A stretch of DNA of 64,000 nt, from positions 1 through 64,000 of the forward strand of contig CAIYIS010000059.1 of assembly GCA_903926385.1 (NCBI GenBank), read 5' to 3'. The notes beneath the pieces are model-generated. The model searched no databases, was not told the DNA's origin, and saw only the letters and a list, made by a program, of their open reading frames with translations. Source of the stretch: an uncultured Bacteroidota bacterium (GTDB taxonomy: Bacteria; Bacteroidota; Bacteroidia; 2-12-FULL-35-15). The translations under genes and the position numbers were made by a program. Below, one piece after another: positions 3,079 to 49,394 of this stretch. Every line of letters begins with the position of its first letter. Positions within the stretch are counted from its first letter, which is position 1.

Positions 3079-4713
3079 ATGGACGATACAAAAACAAAAA
3101 CCGCAAAAGGAAAAACGGCAAAAGAACTAAATGTGAAACCTGTTTATCTGGAATCGGGGTTGGAAGTGAACCCTGTTTACACGGCTGATGATACTAAAAA
3201 CTCGGGGATAGAAAAGGAGATGCCGGGGGAATATCCGTTTACGAGAGGGATACACCCAACGATGTACAGAAACAAACCTTTTACGATACGGCAATATGCG
3301 GGATTTGCTTCGCCTGAAGAAACGAATGAGCGATTTCAGTTTTTGATAGAAAACGGACAAACTGGCTTGAATGTGGCGTTTGACTTGCCGACTCAATGCG
3401 GGCTGGATTCGGACGATGCGAGGGCTTTTGGAGAAGTGGGCAGAGTGGGGATGTCGATAGATACGCTGGCTGATTTTGAAATCGCATTTAAGAATATTGA
3501 TTTGGATAAGATAACGGTATCGCTTACAATAAACGGTACTGCAATAATTCTGATAGCAATGTATATTGCGATGGCAGAGAAGGCGGGATATGATATTTCG
3601 AAGTTGAGAGGGACTGCGCAGAATGATATACTGAAAGAATTTATAGGAAGAGGGACATGGATTTTTCCAGTGGATAAATCGGTGAAGCTGGTTGTAGATA
3701 CTATAGAGTATTGCGCGCATCATGTACCGAAATATAGTCCGGTGAGTGTGTGCGGTTATCATATTCGCGAAAGCGGTGCTAACCCGATACAAGAAATGGC
3801 TTATGCTTTTTGTATTGCAAAAGCATATACTGACGGTGCTTTGGAAAGAGGAATAACGATAGATGATTTTGCATCGCGCTTATCATTCAACTTTGATATT
3901 TACGGTAACTTGTTTGAGCAAGTGGCTAAGTTTAGAGGAGGAAGAAGGTTGTGGGCAAAAATCATAAGAGAAGAATATCATGCGAAAAAAGATAGCTCGT
4001 GCTGGTTGCGCATGATTGCTGGCGGTGGCGGAGGAGGATTGACCAAAGAGCAACCTGAAAATAATATTGTGAGAAGTGCGTATTATGCTTTGATCAGTGC
4101 ATTGTCGGGAACACAAACGATGGCGCTGTGCAGCTATGATGAAGCGTATACCATACCCACGGAACATTCGGCAGAGATATCTTTGCGCACGATGCAGATT
4201 ATGATTCATGAAATGGGAATATGCGATACGGTTGACCCGTTGGGTGGTTCTTATTATGTGGAAGCTTTGACGGATAAATTTGAAGAGGAAATAAAAAGAG
4301 AAATGAAAACGGTGGAGAAATGGGATGGGATAGTGAATGCTGTGGCAACCGGAAAAATTCAGGAGTCGGTTTCGAAACAGGCATACGCAAGAGAAATGGG
4401 AATGCAAACCGGAAAAGTGCCGAAGGTGGGTGTAAATATTTTTACGAGAGAAGAAGAATCGAAAGATGTGGAGTTTCATCCGTACGACCCGAAAGGAGCG
4501 GATGTTCAGATAGAGAAACTGAAAAAGATAAAGGCAGGAAGAAATAACGAAAAAGTAAAATTGTGTTTGGCACAAGTTAAGCAAGATGCAATAGACAATA
4601 AAAATTTGATGCCTTCGATAATTGCAGCGGTGAAAGAATATTGCACAGTGGGTGAAATAGTGACTGCAATGAAAGAGGAGTACGGAGAGTTTAAGGAGCC
4701 AATCTTCTTTTAA
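3079..4713 (+). CDS. B12-dependent acyl-CoA mutase, large (catalytic) subunit
   Basis: This 544-aa TIM-barrel subunit belongs to the methylmalonyl-CoA mutase family and lacks its own B12 domain. It contains TIRQYAGF (69-76), AFDLPTQCGLDSD (100-112), KEFIGRGTWIFP (186-197) and CGYHIRESG (about 225-233). The two residues known to set specificity are Tyr73 and Arg191 here, the methylmalonyl-CoA mutase pair (Tyr89/Arg207 in Propionibacterium), not the Phe/Gln reported for isobutyryl-CoA mutase or the Ile of 2-hydroxyisobutyryl-CoA mutase. The split architecture and TQCG segment resemble archaeal-type mutases. No epimerase or MeaB-like chaperone gene is in the window. The exact substrate remains open. 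Confidence 0.88.
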   Translation: MDDTKTKTAKGKTAKELNVKPVYLESGLEVNPVYTADDTKNSGIEKEMPGEYPFTRGIHPTMYRNKPFTIRQYAGFASPEETNERFQFLIENGQTGLNVAFDLPTQCGLDSDDARAFGEVGRVGMSIDTLADFEIAFKNIDLDKITVSLTINGTAIILIAMYIAMAEKAGYDISKLRGTAQNDILKEFIGRGTWIFPVDKSVKLVVDTIEYCAHHVPKYSPVSVCGYHIRESGANPIQEMAYAFCIAKAYTDGALERGITIDDFASRLSFNFDIYGNLFEQVAKFRGGRRLWAKIIREEYHAKKDSSCWLRMIAGGGGGGLTKEQPENNIVRSAYYALISALSGTQTMALCSYDEAYTIPTEHSAEISLRTMQIMIHEMGICDTVDPLGGSYYVEALTDKFEEEIKREMKTVEKWDGIVNAVATGKIQESVSKQAYAREMGMQTGKVPKVGVNIFTREEESKDVEFHPYDPKGADVQIEKLKKIKAGRNNEKVKLCLAQVKQDAIDNKNLMPSIIAAVKEYCTVGEIVTAMKEEYGEFKEPIFF

Positions 4714-4714
4714 C

Positions 4715-5014
4715 TATTTACGAAATACGAATTTTACGAATATACGAATAGTGGGACTTTACGAAATACTTGACTTTACGAAATACGAATCTTACGAATA
4801 TACGAATAGTGGGACTTTACAAAATACTTGACTTTACGAAATACGAATGGTACGAATATACGAATAGAGGAGCTTTACAAAATACTGGACTTTACGAAAT
4901 ACGAATTGTACGAATATACGAATAGTTGGATTTTACGAAATACGAATATACGAATAGAGGAACTTTACCAAATACGGGACTTTACGAAATAGGAATTGTA
5001 AGAATTTACGAATA
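4715..5014 (+). repeat. 58-bp tandem repeats, left arm of the GxxExxY cassette
   Basis: Three 58-bp units and further shortened ones are built from tttacgaaatacgaat, tacgaatatacgaata and a short linker such as gtgggactttac. Units differ by a few bases and there are no unique spacers. The copy at 4774-4807 matches, inverted, the DNA at 5430-5464 on the far side of the nuclease gene with about one mismatch and one extra base. The same words recur within the gene at 15275-17722. Confidence 0.9.
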
Positions 5015-5023
5015 TTGAAAGTG

Positions 5024-5437
5024 ATGACAAACTCAAAATTAAGAAGAGAAGATTTAGTTTATCCTGAATTATGCTTTAAGATTGTTGGGGTTTTGTTTGA
5101 AGTGTATAATGAGCTTGGATATGGGCATAGTGAGAAGGTATATCAAAAAGCAGTTGCAATAGCTTTAAAAAATGCAGGATTAAAATTTACAGAACAGAAA
5201 TATTATCCTTTGATGTTTCAAGGAGAAAAAATTGGAAGTGGATACTTTGATTTTATTGTAGAAGAAATAATTGTTTTGGAATTGAAAAAAGGAGACCGAT
5301 TTGTGAAGGCACATATTGACCAAGTGAATGAGTATTTAGTTTCGAATAAGTTGAAACTTGGCATTCTTGTCTATTTTGCCCCGAGAAACCTGCATTACAA
5401 AAGAATAGTAAACATTGAAGGAGAAGCCAATTCGTAA
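5024..5437 (+). CDS. GxxExxY family protein (PD-(D/E)XK nuclease-like)
   Basis: Starting at the ATG at 5024 the protein has 137 aa; in-frame TTG (5015) and GTG (5021) codons precede it. The name-giving motif reads GHSEKVY (34-40 from this ATG), after LGYG. A nuclease-like core follows: FDF with an aspartate near residue 76, then VLELKK with Glu/Lys near 86-88, matching the D...ExK pattern of PD-(D/E)XK folds. The family has no established function. The gene is wedged between the mutase and the CoA-transferase and is bracketed by inverted-repeat arms, so it looks like an inserted cassette and not part of the catabolic pathway. Confidence 0.85.
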   Translation: MTNSKLRREDLVYPELCFKIVGVLFEVYNELGYGHSEKVYQKAVAIALKNAGLKFTEQKYYPLMFQGEKIGSGYFDFIVEEIIVLELKKGDRFVKAHIDQVNEYLVSNKLKLGILVYFAPRNLHYKRIVNIEGEANS

Positions 5438-5464
5438 ATTCGTAAGATTCGTATTTCGTAAAAG
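5430..5464 (-). repeat. Right inverted arm of the GxxExxY cassette
   Basis: The bases from the nuclease stop codon to the base before the CoA-transferase ATG are the reverse complement of one left-arm unit (cttttacgaaatacgaat when read on -). Arms in opposite orientation on both sides of the gene are what an inverted-repeat-bounded element would show. The CoA-transferase leader therefore lies inside the repeat. Confidence 0.85.
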
Positions 5465-6670
5465 ATGATTGACAAAAAGAGAATAACGGTTTTAAGTTTG
5501 GAACAAGCTTTGGCTTTGCCCTTTGCTACTGAACGGATGGTGCATCAGGGATGGCGGGTGATACGACTGGAGACTCCTGCGGAAGAAGGGGGAGGAAATG
5601 CCGGTGACCCGAATCGTTATATAGGTGCTGACTCGGGGTTTCATGATTTACATTCCTACTACATTGCTCCAAACATAGGCAAAGAAGGCATCACTATTAA
5701 CTTAAAAAAGAAAGAAGGACAGGAACTTTTATTGAAGATAATAAAAGAACTAAAGGTGGATGTGTTTATGTGTAACACATTGCCGAAACGATACAAACAA
5801 CTGGGAATTGATTTTGAGACATTGAAACAAGCCAACCCTGAACTTATCTGGTGCAGCATATCGGCTATGGGGCCTGATTATCCTAACAGTGCTGGGTACG
5901 ACCCGGCATTGCAGGCATTGATGGGTTATACCTATCTGACAGGAGAACCCAGCGGAAAACCTGTTCCGTGCGGCATTCCGATTATTGATTTGAAAGCAGG
6001 TGATGAAGCATTTATGCAAGTGTTACTGGCTATGCTTGAAAAGAAACCGGGAGGAAAAGAAATTTTTATTTCGATGGCGCAATGTGCGGCAAGTTGGTTG
6101 ATTACTGCTTTGCCTCAATTGGAATTTGTGGAACGGGACGCTGATTTATTTACAAGAAGCGGTAACGAACACCGAAGTTTTATTCCTTGCAATGTATATC
6201 CAACAAAAGATGGAATGGTGTATCTGGCTATTGGCAATGATTTGCAATGGGCTAAATTTTGTTCGTTGGCAGGATTTGAAAAATTGGGTAATGCAGAACG
6301 CAAAACCAATATGGGAAGGATGAAGGAAAAGGAAACAATCTATGCAGAGATTGGAAGCCTGACTGCGAATTATACTACAAAAGAATTTACCACATTATGT
6401 TTGAGTATTAACCTTTCGGTGTCGCCTGTAAACTCGATTAAAGATGTTGCCTCCTTAGATTTCATTTCGAAAGAAATGCTGAAAACAAAAATGCCGAATG
6501 GAAAAACAGTTTCGTTGTTTCCTTCGTCAATGGCAACTGATTATTTGAAATCGAAAGACAATATGCTGAGTTGCGCACCGAGGTTAGGAGAACAAAATAG
6601 CAAGGTGCTATCGGAAGCAGGATTTTCGGAAGAGGAGCAGGCAAAACTAGTAGAGACGCAAGTGATATAA
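5465..6670 (+). CDS. Class III CoA-transferase (CaiB/BaiF family)
   Basis: This 401-aa protein belongs to the formyl-CoA transferase/CaiB family, which moves CoA between carboxylic acids through an enzyme-bound anhydride on an aspartate. The catalytic segment GIPIIDLKAGDEAFM puts that aspartate at 175. The N-terminal VLSLEQALALPFAT and INLKKKEGQELL (about 78-90) segments are typical, and the length is normal. The next gene starts after one base, so they are tightly coupled. Its likely role is to activate an acid of this pathway or release an acid from an acyl-CoA. Substrates cannot be named. Confidence 0.85.
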   Translation: MIDKKRITVLSLEQALALPFATERMVHQGWRVIRLETPAEEGGGNAGDPNRYIGADSGFHDLHSYYIAPNIGKEGITINLKKKEGQELLLKIIKELKVDVFMCNTLPKRYKQLGIDFETLKQANPELIWCSISAMGPDYPNSAGYDPALQALMGYTYLTGEPSGKPVPCGIPIIDLKAGDEAFMQVLLAMLEKKPGGKEIFISMAQCAASWLITALPQLEFVERDADLFTRSGNEHRSFIPCNVYPTKDGMVYLAIGNDLQWAKFCSLAGFEKLGNAERKTNMGRMKEKETIYAEIGSLTANYTTKEFTTLCLSINLSVSPVNSIKDVASLDFISKEMLKTKMPNGKTVSLFPSSMATDYLKSKDNMLSCAPRLGEQNSKVLSEAGFSEEEQAKLVETQVI

Positions 6671-13325: not shown

Positions 13326-13580
13326 TTTAATTTTGTTTTTTTTATTGATTATTTTTTGTTGTATCTCATTGCGTATCTCATTAATTCTGATTCGCCCCAC
13401 AAATATCGGACTCCGCAAAAATCCCAAAAATGATAATTATCAGTTTTTGTAAAATAATTCAAAAATTAATATTCACCCCCCTTAATCCCCTAACCAACAA
13501 CCCAACCCCTCTTTTTCTCCCCGTTTCTTTTCCCATCCTTTCATCCATCCCACTGCTAACATCCGTTTTTCCCCTCCTCG

Positions 13581-13805
13581 CATCCATTAAATACCTCATA
13601 ACATTCGTTAAATGCCTCACTACATTCATTAAATGCCTCATAACATTCATTAAATGCCTCACGACATCCGTTAAATGCCTCATGACATTCATTAAATACT
13701 TCATGACATCCGTTAAATGCCTCACGACATGCATTAAATACCTCCCGACATTCATTAAACGCCTCATGACATGCCCTAAATGCCTCACGACATTCATTAA
13801 ATAAC
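13581..13805 (-). repeat. 21-bp tandem array, ten units plus a partial
   Basis: Ten imperfect units of the type cattcattaaatgcctcacga run from 13581 to 13790, with a partial unit to 13805. Because 21 is divisible by 3, several frames stay open. The - frame from 13807 reads EAFNECR-like heptapeptides from an ATG, but other frames are open too, so coding is unproved. There are no unique spacers, so it is not a CRISPR array. It lies about 255 bases upstream of the gene starting at 13325. Confidence 0.9.
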
Positions 13806-14763: not shown

Positions 14764-15270
14764 ATGATGCACGAGATTACTTTTTTTCTGAATGAAAAGG
14801 AAGTGACGTGTAAGGTGAAACCGGCAACGGTGTTACTCGACCTGATACGTGACGGGTTTGAACTGAAAGGAACGAAGCCGGGTTGCCACGAAGGGGAATG
14901 CGGGGCCTGCACGGTGCTGGTGAATGATGCTCCGGTGAATTCGTGTTTGTTTTTGGCGGTGAATGCAAATGGAAAAAGAATAACAACGATAGAAGGGCTT
15001 ACGAACAAAGATGGTTCGCTGCACGCTGTGCAGGAAGTGCTGGTGGAAAGCGGTGCGGTGCAATGCGGGTTTTGTACTTCGGGAATGGCGATGTCGATAA
15101 AAGCGATGTTGCATCAATATGAAAGCGGACATCATGTGCCGGGAGAGAGTTTGAAAAACTTACCTGACCGTGAGGAAATAAAAAAGTATCTGGAAGGGAA
15201 TTTGTGCAGATGCACGGGTTATGTGAAGATAATTGATGCTGCCGAAAAACTATTTGCAAAAGAAGTTTGA
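14764..15270 (+). CDS. Molybdenum hydroxylase, 2Fe-2S subunit (XdhC/CoxS type)
   Basis: This protein (168 aa from ATG 14764; an in-frame GTG lies at 14737) carries the two [2Fe-2S] clusters of a xanthine dehydrogenase-family enzyme. The plant-type cluster motif reads GCHEGECGACT with a later Cys (about 39-61), and the second cluster motif is CGFCTSGM (about 100) plus LCRCTGY (about 146). It passes electrons from the Mo centre to the FAD subunit. It sits four bases before the large-subunit gene. Length and motif spacing are standard for a three-subunit enzyme. Confidence 0.9.
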   Translation: MMHEITFFLNEKEVTCKVKPATVLLDLIRDGFELKGTKPGCHEGECGACTVLVNDAPVNSCLFLAVNANGKRITTIEGLTNKDGSLHAVQEVLVESGAVQCGFCTSGMAMSIKAMLHQYESGHHVPGESLKNLPDREEIKKYLEGNLCRCTGYVKIIDAAEKLFAKEV

Positions 15271-15274
15271 GAAA

Positions 15275-17722
15275 ATGAAACCAAAACTTAAAGTGATAGG
15301 AACTTCGGTTCCAAAGCAGGATGCGGGCACGAGAGTGACCGGGAAAGCAATTTATGGTCATGATATAAAACTGCCGGGCATGTTGCACGGTGCGATATTA
15401 AGAACAGAACATCCTTCGGCAATAATAGAGTCGATAGATACGAGTGCTGCCAGAAAACTTGAGGGAGTGTATTGTGTGATTACGGCAGATGATGTGGATG
15501 TAAATAACATTGGGTACAAGAGGGATCATCCGATATTGAAAAAGGGAGAAGCAAATTGTACACGTGATGAAATAGCTGCTGTGGCAGCCCAAACAAAGGA
15601 GATAGCAAAACAAGCTTTAAAACTGATTAAGGTAAAATATAAAGTAAGAAAAGGAATTTATGATGTGCAGGAGGCGTTGAAAGAACAAGCTCCGCAAATT
15701 AATAAATTCATTAGTGGGAAATTTTCGAATAAGAATATTGCTGAAACTTTTCATTACGAACACGGAAACCTGGAGGAAGAAAAAAAGAAAAGTGCTCATA
15801 TAGTTACGCGGCTCTTTACACTTCCGCGTATGACTCACGCCTGCATGGCTACCAGCAATGTTACGGCTTCGTACAATACACTCGACAAAAAACTTCTACT
15901 TTATAGTTCTACACAAGTGCCATTTCTTTATCAGAGGGATATGGCACATGCGTTAAAGATGAATCCATCGGATATACGGGTGATACAACCTATTATTGGT
16001 GGTGGCTTCGGGAGTAAATTGGATATTCATCCGTTTGAACCGATTTGTGCCTTGCTCTCCATAAAAACAGGAAAACCTGTACAAATACTTTATTCGAGAG
16101 AAGAAGAATTTATTGCTTCGCCTATTCGTCAACCGATGGAAATAGAACTAACGGCTGGAGTAGATAAAGATGGGAATTTTACATTCAGAGAAATAAATAT
16201 TGTAAAAGATAATGGTGCGTATACTTCGTGGGGAGCCACTACTCCATTTGTGATTATGCAGTCGTTTTCTTCGTTATATAAATTGAAAGCCTGCAGATTT
16301 AATGCAACTGCAGTTTATACCAATAACGTGTTTGCAGGTTCATTCAGAGGGTATGGAAACCCGCAAGCAACATTTGCTTTGGAACGTGTTATTGATTTGC
16401 TGGCTGACAAACTGGGAATGGATAAAGCAGAAATTCGTTTGAAAAATGCAAATGAAAAAGGTGAAGTAACCGGACAAGGATTGCACTACGATACCTGCGG
16501 ACATAAAGATTGTTTGGAAACGGTTATCAAAAAAAGCAAATATCATTCTTTTCGAAATACGAATAATGGTGCTTTACGAAATACGAATAAAAACGAATCT
16601 ACGAATAATGGAAGCCGTTTCAAAAAAGGAATCGGACTGGCTTCGATGCTGCATGTGGGTGGCGGTGCGAAAATATATCGCTCGGATGGTTGCGGAACGA
16701 CTATTAAAATTGACCCTTATGGATATTGTACCATCATTACCGGTTCGAATGAAATAGGACAAGGTTCGGAAACGGTGCTGGCTATGATGGCATCGGAAGA
16801 ATTGGGTATTGATTTAAAAAAGATAAAAGTAATAAATACGGATACCGATGTAAAGCCTTGGGATGTGGGCGTACACGCTTCGCGTACAAGTTTCGTTGCG
16901 GGAAATTCGTTGCTGGGTGCAATTAAAATACTAAAAGAAAAACTGAACAAAAAGGCGGGAGAATTACTTAAATCAGACAATACAGCGTATGAGTATGAAA
17001 ATGGAAATATATATCCTTTACGAAATACGAATAAAAACGAATCTACGAATACAGAAAATAAAGCATCAAAATTGACGAAAGAAATTGCGAATACAGATTC
17101 GTATATTCGTAATGATTCGGATTTCGTAAAGTTAGATAAGGTGGTTCGCGAAATGCATTTTACCGAACCGAATGAACTTGCTGTTGCTAATTTCTTTTAC
17201 GAACCTTCGAGCAAATTTCAGGATAAAGATTTTAAAGGAAATGTTTCGGGGTCGTACGCTTTTGCGGCACAGGCCATAGAAGTGGAAGTGGATACCTATA
17301 CCGGCAATGTAAAAGTAACCGATATTTATGTAGCGCAGGATGTAGGAAAGGTGTTGAATCCATTATTGCTCGGAGGGCAGATAGAAGGAGGAATATTGCA
17401 AGGGGTGGGTTATGCGCTCACAGAGGAGTTGCTGATGCATGAAGGAAAAATTCTGAATCCGAATTTCCATAATTATAAAATGCTTACTGCGGCTGATATT
17501 CCAAACATTCATTTCTTCCCCATTGAAACAAACGATAAAGAAGGCCCTTATGGAGCAAAGGGGGTTGGCGAAGCACCATTGATACCTACAGCTGCTGCCA
17601 TTGCAAATGCGGTGTGTAATGCACTGGGGCTTGAGGTGATTGATTTACCAATAACACCTGAAAAAGTAATGAAAGCACTCGCATCAAAAAATACAGAAAC
17701 AATACAAACAAAAAATAAATAA
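15275..17722 (+). CDS. Molybdenum hydroxylase, Mo-cofactor (large) subunit
   Basis: This 815-aa subunit binds molybdopterin and hydroxylates a carbon or aldehyde group of an unknown substrate. Motifs are VPKQDAGTRVTGKA at the N-terminus, GGGFGSK (about 244), SFRGYGNPQ (about 356), NEIGQGSET (about 492) and GAKGVGEAP (about 760), where the Glu is the family's catalytic base. It lacks the CO-dehydrogenase AYRCSFR loop, so it is nearer to xanthine/aldehyde-type enzymes. Two stretches, about 426-445 and about 581-619, contain RNTNKNESTN and look foreign; they are encoded by the dispersed repeat found around the GxxExxY gene. The start at 15275 is chosen over one at 15233, which overlaps the previous gene and adds a basic tail. 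Confidence 0.88.
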   Translation: MKPKLKVIGTSVPKQDAGTRVTGKAIYGHDIKLPGMLHGAILRTEHPSAIIESIDTSAARKLEGVYCVITADDVDVNNIGYKRDHPILKKGEANCTRDEIAAVAAQTKEIAKQALKLIKVKYKVRKGIYDVQEALKEQAPQINKFISGKFSNKNIAETFHYEHGNLEEEKKKSAHIVTRLFTLPRMTHACMATSNVTASYNTLDKKLLLYSSTQVPFLYQRDMAHALKMNPSDIRVIQPIIGGGFGSKLDIHPFEPICALLSIKTGKPVQILYSREEEFIASPIRQPMEIELTAGVDKDGNFTFREINIVKDNGAYTSWGATTPFVIMQSFSSLYKLKACRFNATAVYTNNVFAGSFRGYGNPQATFALERVIDLLADKLGMDKAEIRLKNANEKGEVTGQGLHYDTCGHKDCLETVIKKSKYHSFRNTNNGALRNTNKNESTNNGSRFKKGIGLASMLHVGGGAKIYRSDGCGTTIKIDPYGYCTIITGSNEIGQGSETVLAMMASEELGIDLKKIKVINTDTDVKPWDVGVHASRTSFVAGNSLLGAIKILKEKLNKKAGELLKSDNTAYEYENGNIYPLRNTNKNESTNTENKASKLTKEIANTDSYIRNDSDFVKLDKVVREMHFTEPNELAVANFFYEPSSKFQDKDFKGNVSGSYAFAAQAIEVEVDTYTGNVKVTDIYVAQDVGKVLNPLLLGGQIEGGILQGVGYALTEELLMHEGKILNPNFHNYKMLTAADIPNIHFFPIETNDKEGPYGAKGVGEAPLIPTAAAIANAVCNALGLEVIDLPITPEKVMKALASKNTETIQTKNK
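16550..16610 (+). repeat. Arm-type repeat inserted in frame (copy 1)
   Basis: Two direct tcgaaatacgaata / tacgaaatacgaata words are followed by aaaacgaatctacgaata. Bases 16572-16607 are identical to 17016-17051. It encodes RNTNNGALRNTNKNESTN in the large subunit, where relatives normally run straight into (K/R)xGIG. Confidence 0.85.
17016..17131 (+). repeat. 116-bp inverted-repeat element inserted in frame (copy 2)
   Basis: The first 36 bases (ctttacgaaatacgaat...) match the reverse complement of the last 36 bases (17096-17131) at 30 of 36 positions. The element is read through without a stop, adding roughly 39 residues before KVVREMHF. It has the form of a miniature non-autonomous element related to the arms at 4715-5464. 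Confidence 0.85.
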
Positions 17723-45790: not shown

Positions 45791-45940
45791 TTTCAACTCT
45801 TTATTTTGTTTGCCACCCAGAGCTATTAGAAGGGCTATTTCGTAAAGACCTTCATTCGTAAATTCAGGGCAAAAGTCCAGTGGACTTATGAGCCAGGTTG
45901 TGCGTGGTCGTATTTCGTAAAGCACCATAATTCATAATTA
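45791..45940 (+). repeat. Dispersed repeat DNA with inverted GxxExxY-type arms
   Basis: The first roughly 45 bases (tttcaactctttattttgtttgccaccc) recur almost unchanged after the terminator at 48255. Then come atttcgtaaagacc...ttcgtaaattc (about 45837-45866) and gtatttcgtaaagcac (about 45909-45924), which match the right-arm orientation of the repeat around the GxxExxY gene. It appears to be a relic of that element. Confidence 0.65.
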
Positions 45941-49059: not shown

Positions 49060-49128
49060 ATTATTTTGTTTTTAAGTTATTATTTATTTGTAATCTATTG
49101 ATAATGTAATTGTAAACTCTTCTGTTCA

Positions 49129-49359
49129 ACTTCCGGCCGTGGGGCTACTACTTCCGGCCGTGCGGCTACTACTTCCGGCCGTGCGGCCACTACTTCCGTC
49201 CGTGCGGCCACAACTTCCGGCCGTGCGGCCACTACTTCTGGCCGTGTGGCTACAACTTCCGGCCGTGCGGCCACAACTTCCGGCCGTGCGGCTACAACTT
49301 CCGTCCGTGCGGCCACAACTTCCGGCCGTGTGGCCAAAACTTCCGGCCGTATGGCCTCA
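49129..49359 (-). repeat. GC-rich 21-bp tandem array, eleven units
   Basis: Eleven units like acttccggccgtgcggccac differ by few bases, and each can fold through ggcc...ggcc. The array is strikingly GC-rich within AT-rich surroundings. On - a frame from 49391 to 49095 reads VVAARPE heptapeptides (98 aa with unique ends MLSINSYRIQVEA and EQKSLQLHYQ), starting three bases after the HTH gene stop. A + frame is open too, so coding is possible but not proved. Confidence 0.9.
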
Positions 49360-49394
49360 ACTTGTATTCGGTAAGAGTTAATGGATAACATTGG

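Follow-up and report, generated by a model that had tools for sequence, protein, structure and literature searches.

Inverted repeat arms flank GxxExxY nuclease genes in a likely mobile repeat element of Bacteroidetes

The window, by which we mean the whole 64,000-nt stretch of DNA analyzed from an uncultured Bacteroidota bacterium, carries a cassette in which a small gene for a GxxExxY protein lies between inverted arms of short tandem units. We propose that this cassette is likely to represent a nuclease-encoding mobile repeat element, resembling REP-RAYT systems in plan but unrelated to them. What is shown below is how the cassette is laid out, how arm sequence goes with protein clade, how the dispersed copies match the arm type, and how genomes differ in the presence or absence of forms with and without the gene; that the nuclease itself performs the movement of the arms is the most likely reading of these observations but remains an inference, for which there are no activity data.

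Layout of the window cassette

The cassette is placed between two protein genes, and not in rRNA. These genes, both taken from the list of open reading frames (ORFs), are a methylmalonyl-CoA-mutase-like gene upstream (positions 3079 to 4713, forward strand) and a CoA-transferase gene downstream (5465 to 6670, forward strand), the latter serving as the anchor for junction comparisons. The nuclease gene (5024 to 5437, forward strand) encodes a 137-aa protein of the PD-(D/E)XK fold, as identified by profiles and a structural model. To its left lies a tandem arm (4717 to 5013, forward strand) with five full or near-full copies of a repeat (4717 to 4749, 4775 to 4807, 4833 to 4865, 4891 to 4923, and 4981 to 5013) and a partial copy near 4932; Tandem Repeats Finder reports the region from 4717 to 4943 as a repeat with a period of 58, 3.9 copies, and 91% matches and a second tandem run that reaches 5014. 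To its right, the inverted-pair search and the sequence delineate a single inverted copy on the reverse strand (5430 to 5462), which covers the final 8 nt of the gene, including its stop codon. The top inverted pair joins 4775 to 4807 with 5430 to 5462 (33 nt, 97% complementary), and the four further left copies pair with the right arm at 88 to 94%. The 33-nt arm, TTTACGAAATACGAATCTTACGAATATACGAAT, consists of four TACGAA units separated by short, variable spacers. The preliminary description, made from the sequence alone, had claimed a 58-bp tandem array to the left of the gene and one inverted unit to its right, both of which held; its claim that the right arm ends exactly at the ATG of the next gene failed slightly, the end lying 2 nt before this ATG at 5465.

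Inverted matches within 4500 to 5700 were confined to the left arm versus the right arm, and the same search found no palindrome inside a single arm. A known RNA family was considered for the cassette and rejected, there being no Rfam match in 4600 to 5600 up to an E value of 1.

A small nuclease with a predicted Cas4-like core

The window protein matches PF13366 (PDDEXK_3; E = 1.7e-28), its sole Pfam match, and the GxxExxY profile TIGR04256; its scores (100.2 bits against a curated cutoff of 35 for TIGR04256 and 99.8 against 22 for PF13366) meet the requirement for membership in the GxxExxY family. Profile searches detected no known transposase, Y1 (HUH) transposase, or IVP (PF05635) domain in it. 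An AlphaFold2 model with a mean pLDDT of 92 had PD-(D/E)XK nucleases as its top structural neighbors, and its closest solved fold was the Cas4 protein SSO0001 (PDB code 4ic1; Foldseek, 5.5e-5; Z = 11.0 over 100 residues). K88 is invariant across 71 family members, whose identity to the window protein is only 21 to 58%, and E37, D76, E86, Q100, and Y104 are nearly so. A PD-(D/E)XK core followed by QxxxY is the pattern of RecB/Cas4-type nucleases, and the window protein shares both this pattern and the catalytic core with SSO0001. It differs from Cas4, which has four cysteines for an iron-sulfur site, in having only one cysteine and therefore cannot hold such a site. On our reading, the GxxExxY protein is predicted to be a small nuclease that depends on metal and has a Cas4-like core, a prediction not backed by activity data. 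Two other assignments were rejected: a known defense protein (the PADLOC matches were weak, the best being PDC-M36A at E = 8e-4, followed by Cas4 at 0.003) and a phage family (a single weak PHROG match of unknown function).

Inverted arms across GxxExxY genes

For 106 GxxExxY genes from the genus, we compared 300 nt on each flank with the flanks of 190 neighboring ORFs and with 316 swapped flanks. The median inverted-repeat score was 20 for the GxxExxY genes versus 9 for either control. Scores of ≥16 were reached by 71% of the genes versus 2.1% of the neighboring ORFs and 1.3% of the swapped flanks, and scores of ≥14 were reached by 75.5% versus 2.1% and 2.8%, respectively; direct repeats scoring ≥14 occurred in just 13% of the flanks of the same genes. 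The arms are thus not random relative to GxxExxY genes; random placement was the outcome that, according to the preliminary description, would have refuted it. A wider set of 76 loci of the canonical GxxExxY subfamily, mostly from Bacteroidetes with some from other phyla, was compared with 240 neighbors. Here, inverted scores of ≥14 were found at 43% of the loci versus 1.2% of the neighbors, and scores of ≥18 were found at 20% versus 0%. Because direct repeats scoring ≥14 are fairly common in this set (21%), the claim for the layout is weaker beyond the genus.

Of the 106 gene-bearing cassettes, 92 are in sense to both neighbors and 1 is antisense to both; single arms show no such bias (5 to 2, and 3 to 14). 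A special insertion mechanism was rejected as the cause of this bias: 69% of ordinary genes are already in sense to both neighbors, and the bias therefore shows operon-like placement only. We infer from the placement that the GxxExxY gene may depend on read-through transcription.

Arm sequence, protein clade, and dispersed copies

The arms vary between elements (ACGAAT, CACAGATT, CGCAGAG, CACATAG, and others) and agree within an element, and the spacing of their units is common to the elements, with self-matches peaking at lags of 8 to 10, 17, and 19. Protein identity correlates with the number of shared arm 5-mers (Mantel rho = 0.51, a value reached in 0 of 999 permutations). Arm class requires 10 changes on the protein tree versus 43.4 after shuffling, and none of 200 shuffles was as low. 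Among the 79 proteins with scored arms, ACNAAT-type arms accompany every one of the 16 that share at least 43% identity with the window protein and recur in only one (L101) of the remaining 63. The arm classes are our own bins, drawn from motif counts; the 5-mer test is independent of them. Arm sequence thus follows protein phylogeny to identities as low as about 30%, with the caveat for our main reading that a correlation of gene and arm is also expected from codescent alone.

The arm units are also dispersed without the gene. The 16-nt unit TTTACGAAATACGAAT occurs in the 4.27-Mb genome of the window in 49 exact copies and in 61 with one mismatch or fewer, compared with 0 for the reversed control. 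These copies form 34 clusters, 24 of which hold a single copy and 2 of which hold both orientations. Across the genus, ACGAAWWACGAAT has a median density of 10.0 per Mb in the 15 genomes with the clade of the window protein versus 2.5 in the 21 without it (P = 2e-4); 2 of the 15 were assigned to the clade through profile-match coordinates rather than protein sequence. Several single arms of the window's own genome (L004, L007, L009, L012, L015, and L019) adjoin long arrays of other short repeats, and the window itself contains two other tandem arrays (13573 to 13802 and 49127 to 49363), each with 11 copies of a 21-nt unit.

A changed arm type is accompanied by an expansion of that type within the same genome. 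The arms of elements L147 and L139 read AC[CT]AAT (ACYAAT), and the L147 genome contains 163 copies of ACYAAATACYAAT versus 1 in the control; a looser pattern gives 180 copies versus 4 there and remains near the control level in most other genomes. The L139 genome, whose assembly is 64% complete, has just 11 copies versus 3 in the control. High ACYAAT counts in two other genomes (G006 and G011) were set aside, as the reversed control was high too; the places listed in G006 are mostly 7-bp tandem arrays. The copies in the L147 genome align to ATCTACTAAATACYAATnnnTACTAATATACTAATCTGTGT, with the units almost fixed. Among 27 full dispersed single arms (L272 to L301 and L147; genome G013), the three central bases are almost random and the units on either side almost fixed, and in two copies of this genome a small G+C-rich hairpin replaces these three bases.

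Presence, absence, and gene-less arms

The window cassette is absent from the mutase/CoA-transferase junction in all eight aligned relatives, three of which have merely 5 to 9 nt between the two genes; the empty junctions whose absence would have counted against the preliminary description were thus found. Two others of the eight have arms without a gene at the junction (L074 and L075, the latter with another arm type), and two have only the right arm. Since gene-less arms of one type occupy the junction in one species and those of another type in another (L074 and L075), it looks like a repeated target. The sister genome, also among the eight, retains a repeat relic of 37 nt at this junction, and loss there is therefore as possible as gain. 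Two more differences separate the sister genome from that of the window: it lacks the latter's second GxxExxY element, the flanks being 97% identical, and a single arm found between rpsI and rpsB.

Within the window, the preliminary description had claimed related units in a hydroxylase gene and degenerate right-arm sequence near 45.8 kb, and both claims held. The molybdenum hydroxylase gene (15233 to 17722) carries, in frame and within 16549 to 17131, one and a half gene-less arms (16549 to 16607, forward strand) and a gene-less inverted arm pair (17017 to 17131, without assigned strand; arms at 17017 to 17051 and about 17096 to 17131). Degenerate gene-less copies lie at 45833 to 45919 on the reverse strand (near 45.84 kb). 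Both arm stretches of the hydroxylase gene are absent from the syntenic orthologs whose alignments were fully inspected (83% and 79% identical). That gene-less arms, single and paired, have moved is well supported; the direction of change, gain or loss, is only inferred at each site. At the cleanest empty site (L267 versus L001), the boundary falls in A/T-rich sequence and no target-site duplication can be defined.

IVP genes with the same plan

Genes of the IVP family (PF05635) are present in 35 of the 36 genomes of the genus, and inverted arms (score of ≥14) flank 85% of the 26 that were scored, with other units such as TGAGATG and GTATCAGG. The arms of the five IVP genes of the window's own genome were aligned individually, and one of these genes has arms of AATTACGA units, which resemble the ACGAAT type. 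IVP genes of the genus (L063 to L067 and L238 to L266) lie between inverted arms of 7- to 8-nt tandem units, and those inspected sit among protein genes. An intervening sequence of Coxiella rRNA has GACAGAT heptamers ahead of an IVP-type ORF (PMC4990558). Because this architecture is shared by the IVP proteins, four-helix proteins that are not known to be nucleases, a nuclease is not required for such elements generally.

Comparison with known systems

In REP-RAYT systems, repeat type and protein type are paired, and several types may coexist in a genome (PMC3116915). The elements described here are like them in having a single gene among repeats that are also dispersed without the gene and in the pairing of repeat and protein types. 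They differ in the protein, a PD-(D/E)XK nuclease rather than a Y1 transposase as in RAYTs; in the arms, which are arrays of direct units rather than palindromes as in REPs; and in that the dispersed copies of the window genome, where scored, are mostly single arms and not hairpin doublets. With miniature elements (MITEs) and insertion sequences they share terminal inverted arms and the existence of gene-bearing and gene-less forms, but the cassette is without a known transposase or a defined target duplication, and its arms have internal direct units. With the intervening sequences of 23S rRNA, the cassette shares a small ORF enclosed by inverted arms containing short tandem units; however, the GxxExxY nuclease has another fold, and the cassette lies between protein genes rather than in rRNA. 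Rickettsia palindromic elements are short repeats placed in frame in protein genes, a likeness to the in-frame arms of the hydroxylase gene, but they are not known to have a gene of their own, as the cassette does. The parallel with RAYT/REP and IS/MITE pairs that the preliminary description had drawn is supported, in that the repeat spreads without the gene, with the resemblance to RAYTs being one of plan only. Its interpretation is supported overall; the nuclease as the driver of the spread is still inference, as had been said there.

Proposed mechanism and rival explanations

We propose that the cassette represents a mobile repeat element in its gene-bearing form. Its arms are arrays of short units (TACGAA here), mostly four per arm and about 8 to 10 bp apart. 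The gene would most likely be expressed by read-through from the surrounding operon. The nuclease may then assemble as an oligomer on its own arm units and cut or nick the DNA there, leading to copies of the arms at new sites, whether or not the gene travels with them; solitary arms and pairs lacking the gene would be nonautonomous derivatives. The binding, cutting, oligomer, and copying steps are all inferred.

Three other explanations have to be weighed against this reading. The arms might be mobile by themselves or be moved by another factor, with the GxxExxY and IVP genes as captured passengers. Arms lacking a gene, both single and paired, are found and have inserted, two unrelated protein families have one layout, and an IVP gene of the window's own genome has AATTACGA arms similar to the ACGAAT type, all of which favor such a view. 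We nevertheless consider it unlikely: arm sequence tracks the protein tree to about 30% identity, where the arm type has changed, the new type has expanded in that genome, and matches to candidate movers are missing from 19 of the 36 genomes, including that of the window, for reverse transcriptase and from 7 of the 36 for Y1 transposase. A mobilizer acting in trans (IS200/RAYT or reverse transcriptase) was accordingly rejected as absent from several element-rich genomes, within the limits set by incomplete assemblies.

The cassette might alternatively act at the RNA level, like the intervening sequences of 23S rRNA, with the arms pairing and RNase III cutting the stem so that the host message is spared. 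The sense placement of gene-bearing cassettes within codirectional gene pairs, the same layout in IVP, the family of rRNA intervening sequences, and the GACAGAT heptamers before the Coxiella ORF (PMC4990558) speak for this. Against it, G-U-compatible changes are not in excess among the arm mismatches (63 versus 82), so that the direction of the mismatches lends no support to RNA pairing of the arms; partnerless single arms are common, as seen in the 24 single-copy clusters among 34 in the window's genome and the 2 with both orientations; and changed units spread as DNA copies. We regard this explanation as very improbable. No more credible is the view that the arms are operators through which the nuclease controls its own or nearby genes, with the dispersed copies forming a regulon. 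Such a view would account for units that are strongly conserved between spacers that are not, as in binding sites, and for arms that adjoin the gene; however, insertion accounts better for the inverted arm downstream of the gene, the copies placed in frame in coding sequence, and the presence/absence differences among close relatives.

Beyond the reading of the cassette as a nuclease-encoding mobile element, a bolder one can be formulated, which could as readily prove wrong as right. Under it, a single widespread class of mobile DNA, found in several bacterial phyla, would include both GxxExxY and IVP elements as separate lineages. A small protein would recognize arrays of units of about 8 to 10 bp and move the DNA lying between or beside them to new sites; with a unit sequence specific to every protein lineage, proteins and arms would jointly amount to a natural recognition code.

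Implications

Our results suggest that the GxxExxY nuclease likely belongs to a kind of mobile DNA that has not been described so far. We did not find a description of such an element in the open-access literature searched; subscription journals and preprints lay outside its scope, and priority is not proven. In the same literature, mentions of GxxExxY were not about repeats or were in a virus genome paper, and nothing relevant was found for PDDEXK_3 or for IVP with intergenic repeats. The proposal provides a first working hypothesis for the GxxExxY proteins, previously without an established function, and, by the layout they have in common, links them to the orphan IVP proteins. If it is true, the origin of many short intergenic repeats in these Bacteroidetes would be explained, and, if the nuclease reads the arm units, the tens of arm-protein pairs would constitute a set from which the recognition code of a tiny Cas4-like nuclease may be read.
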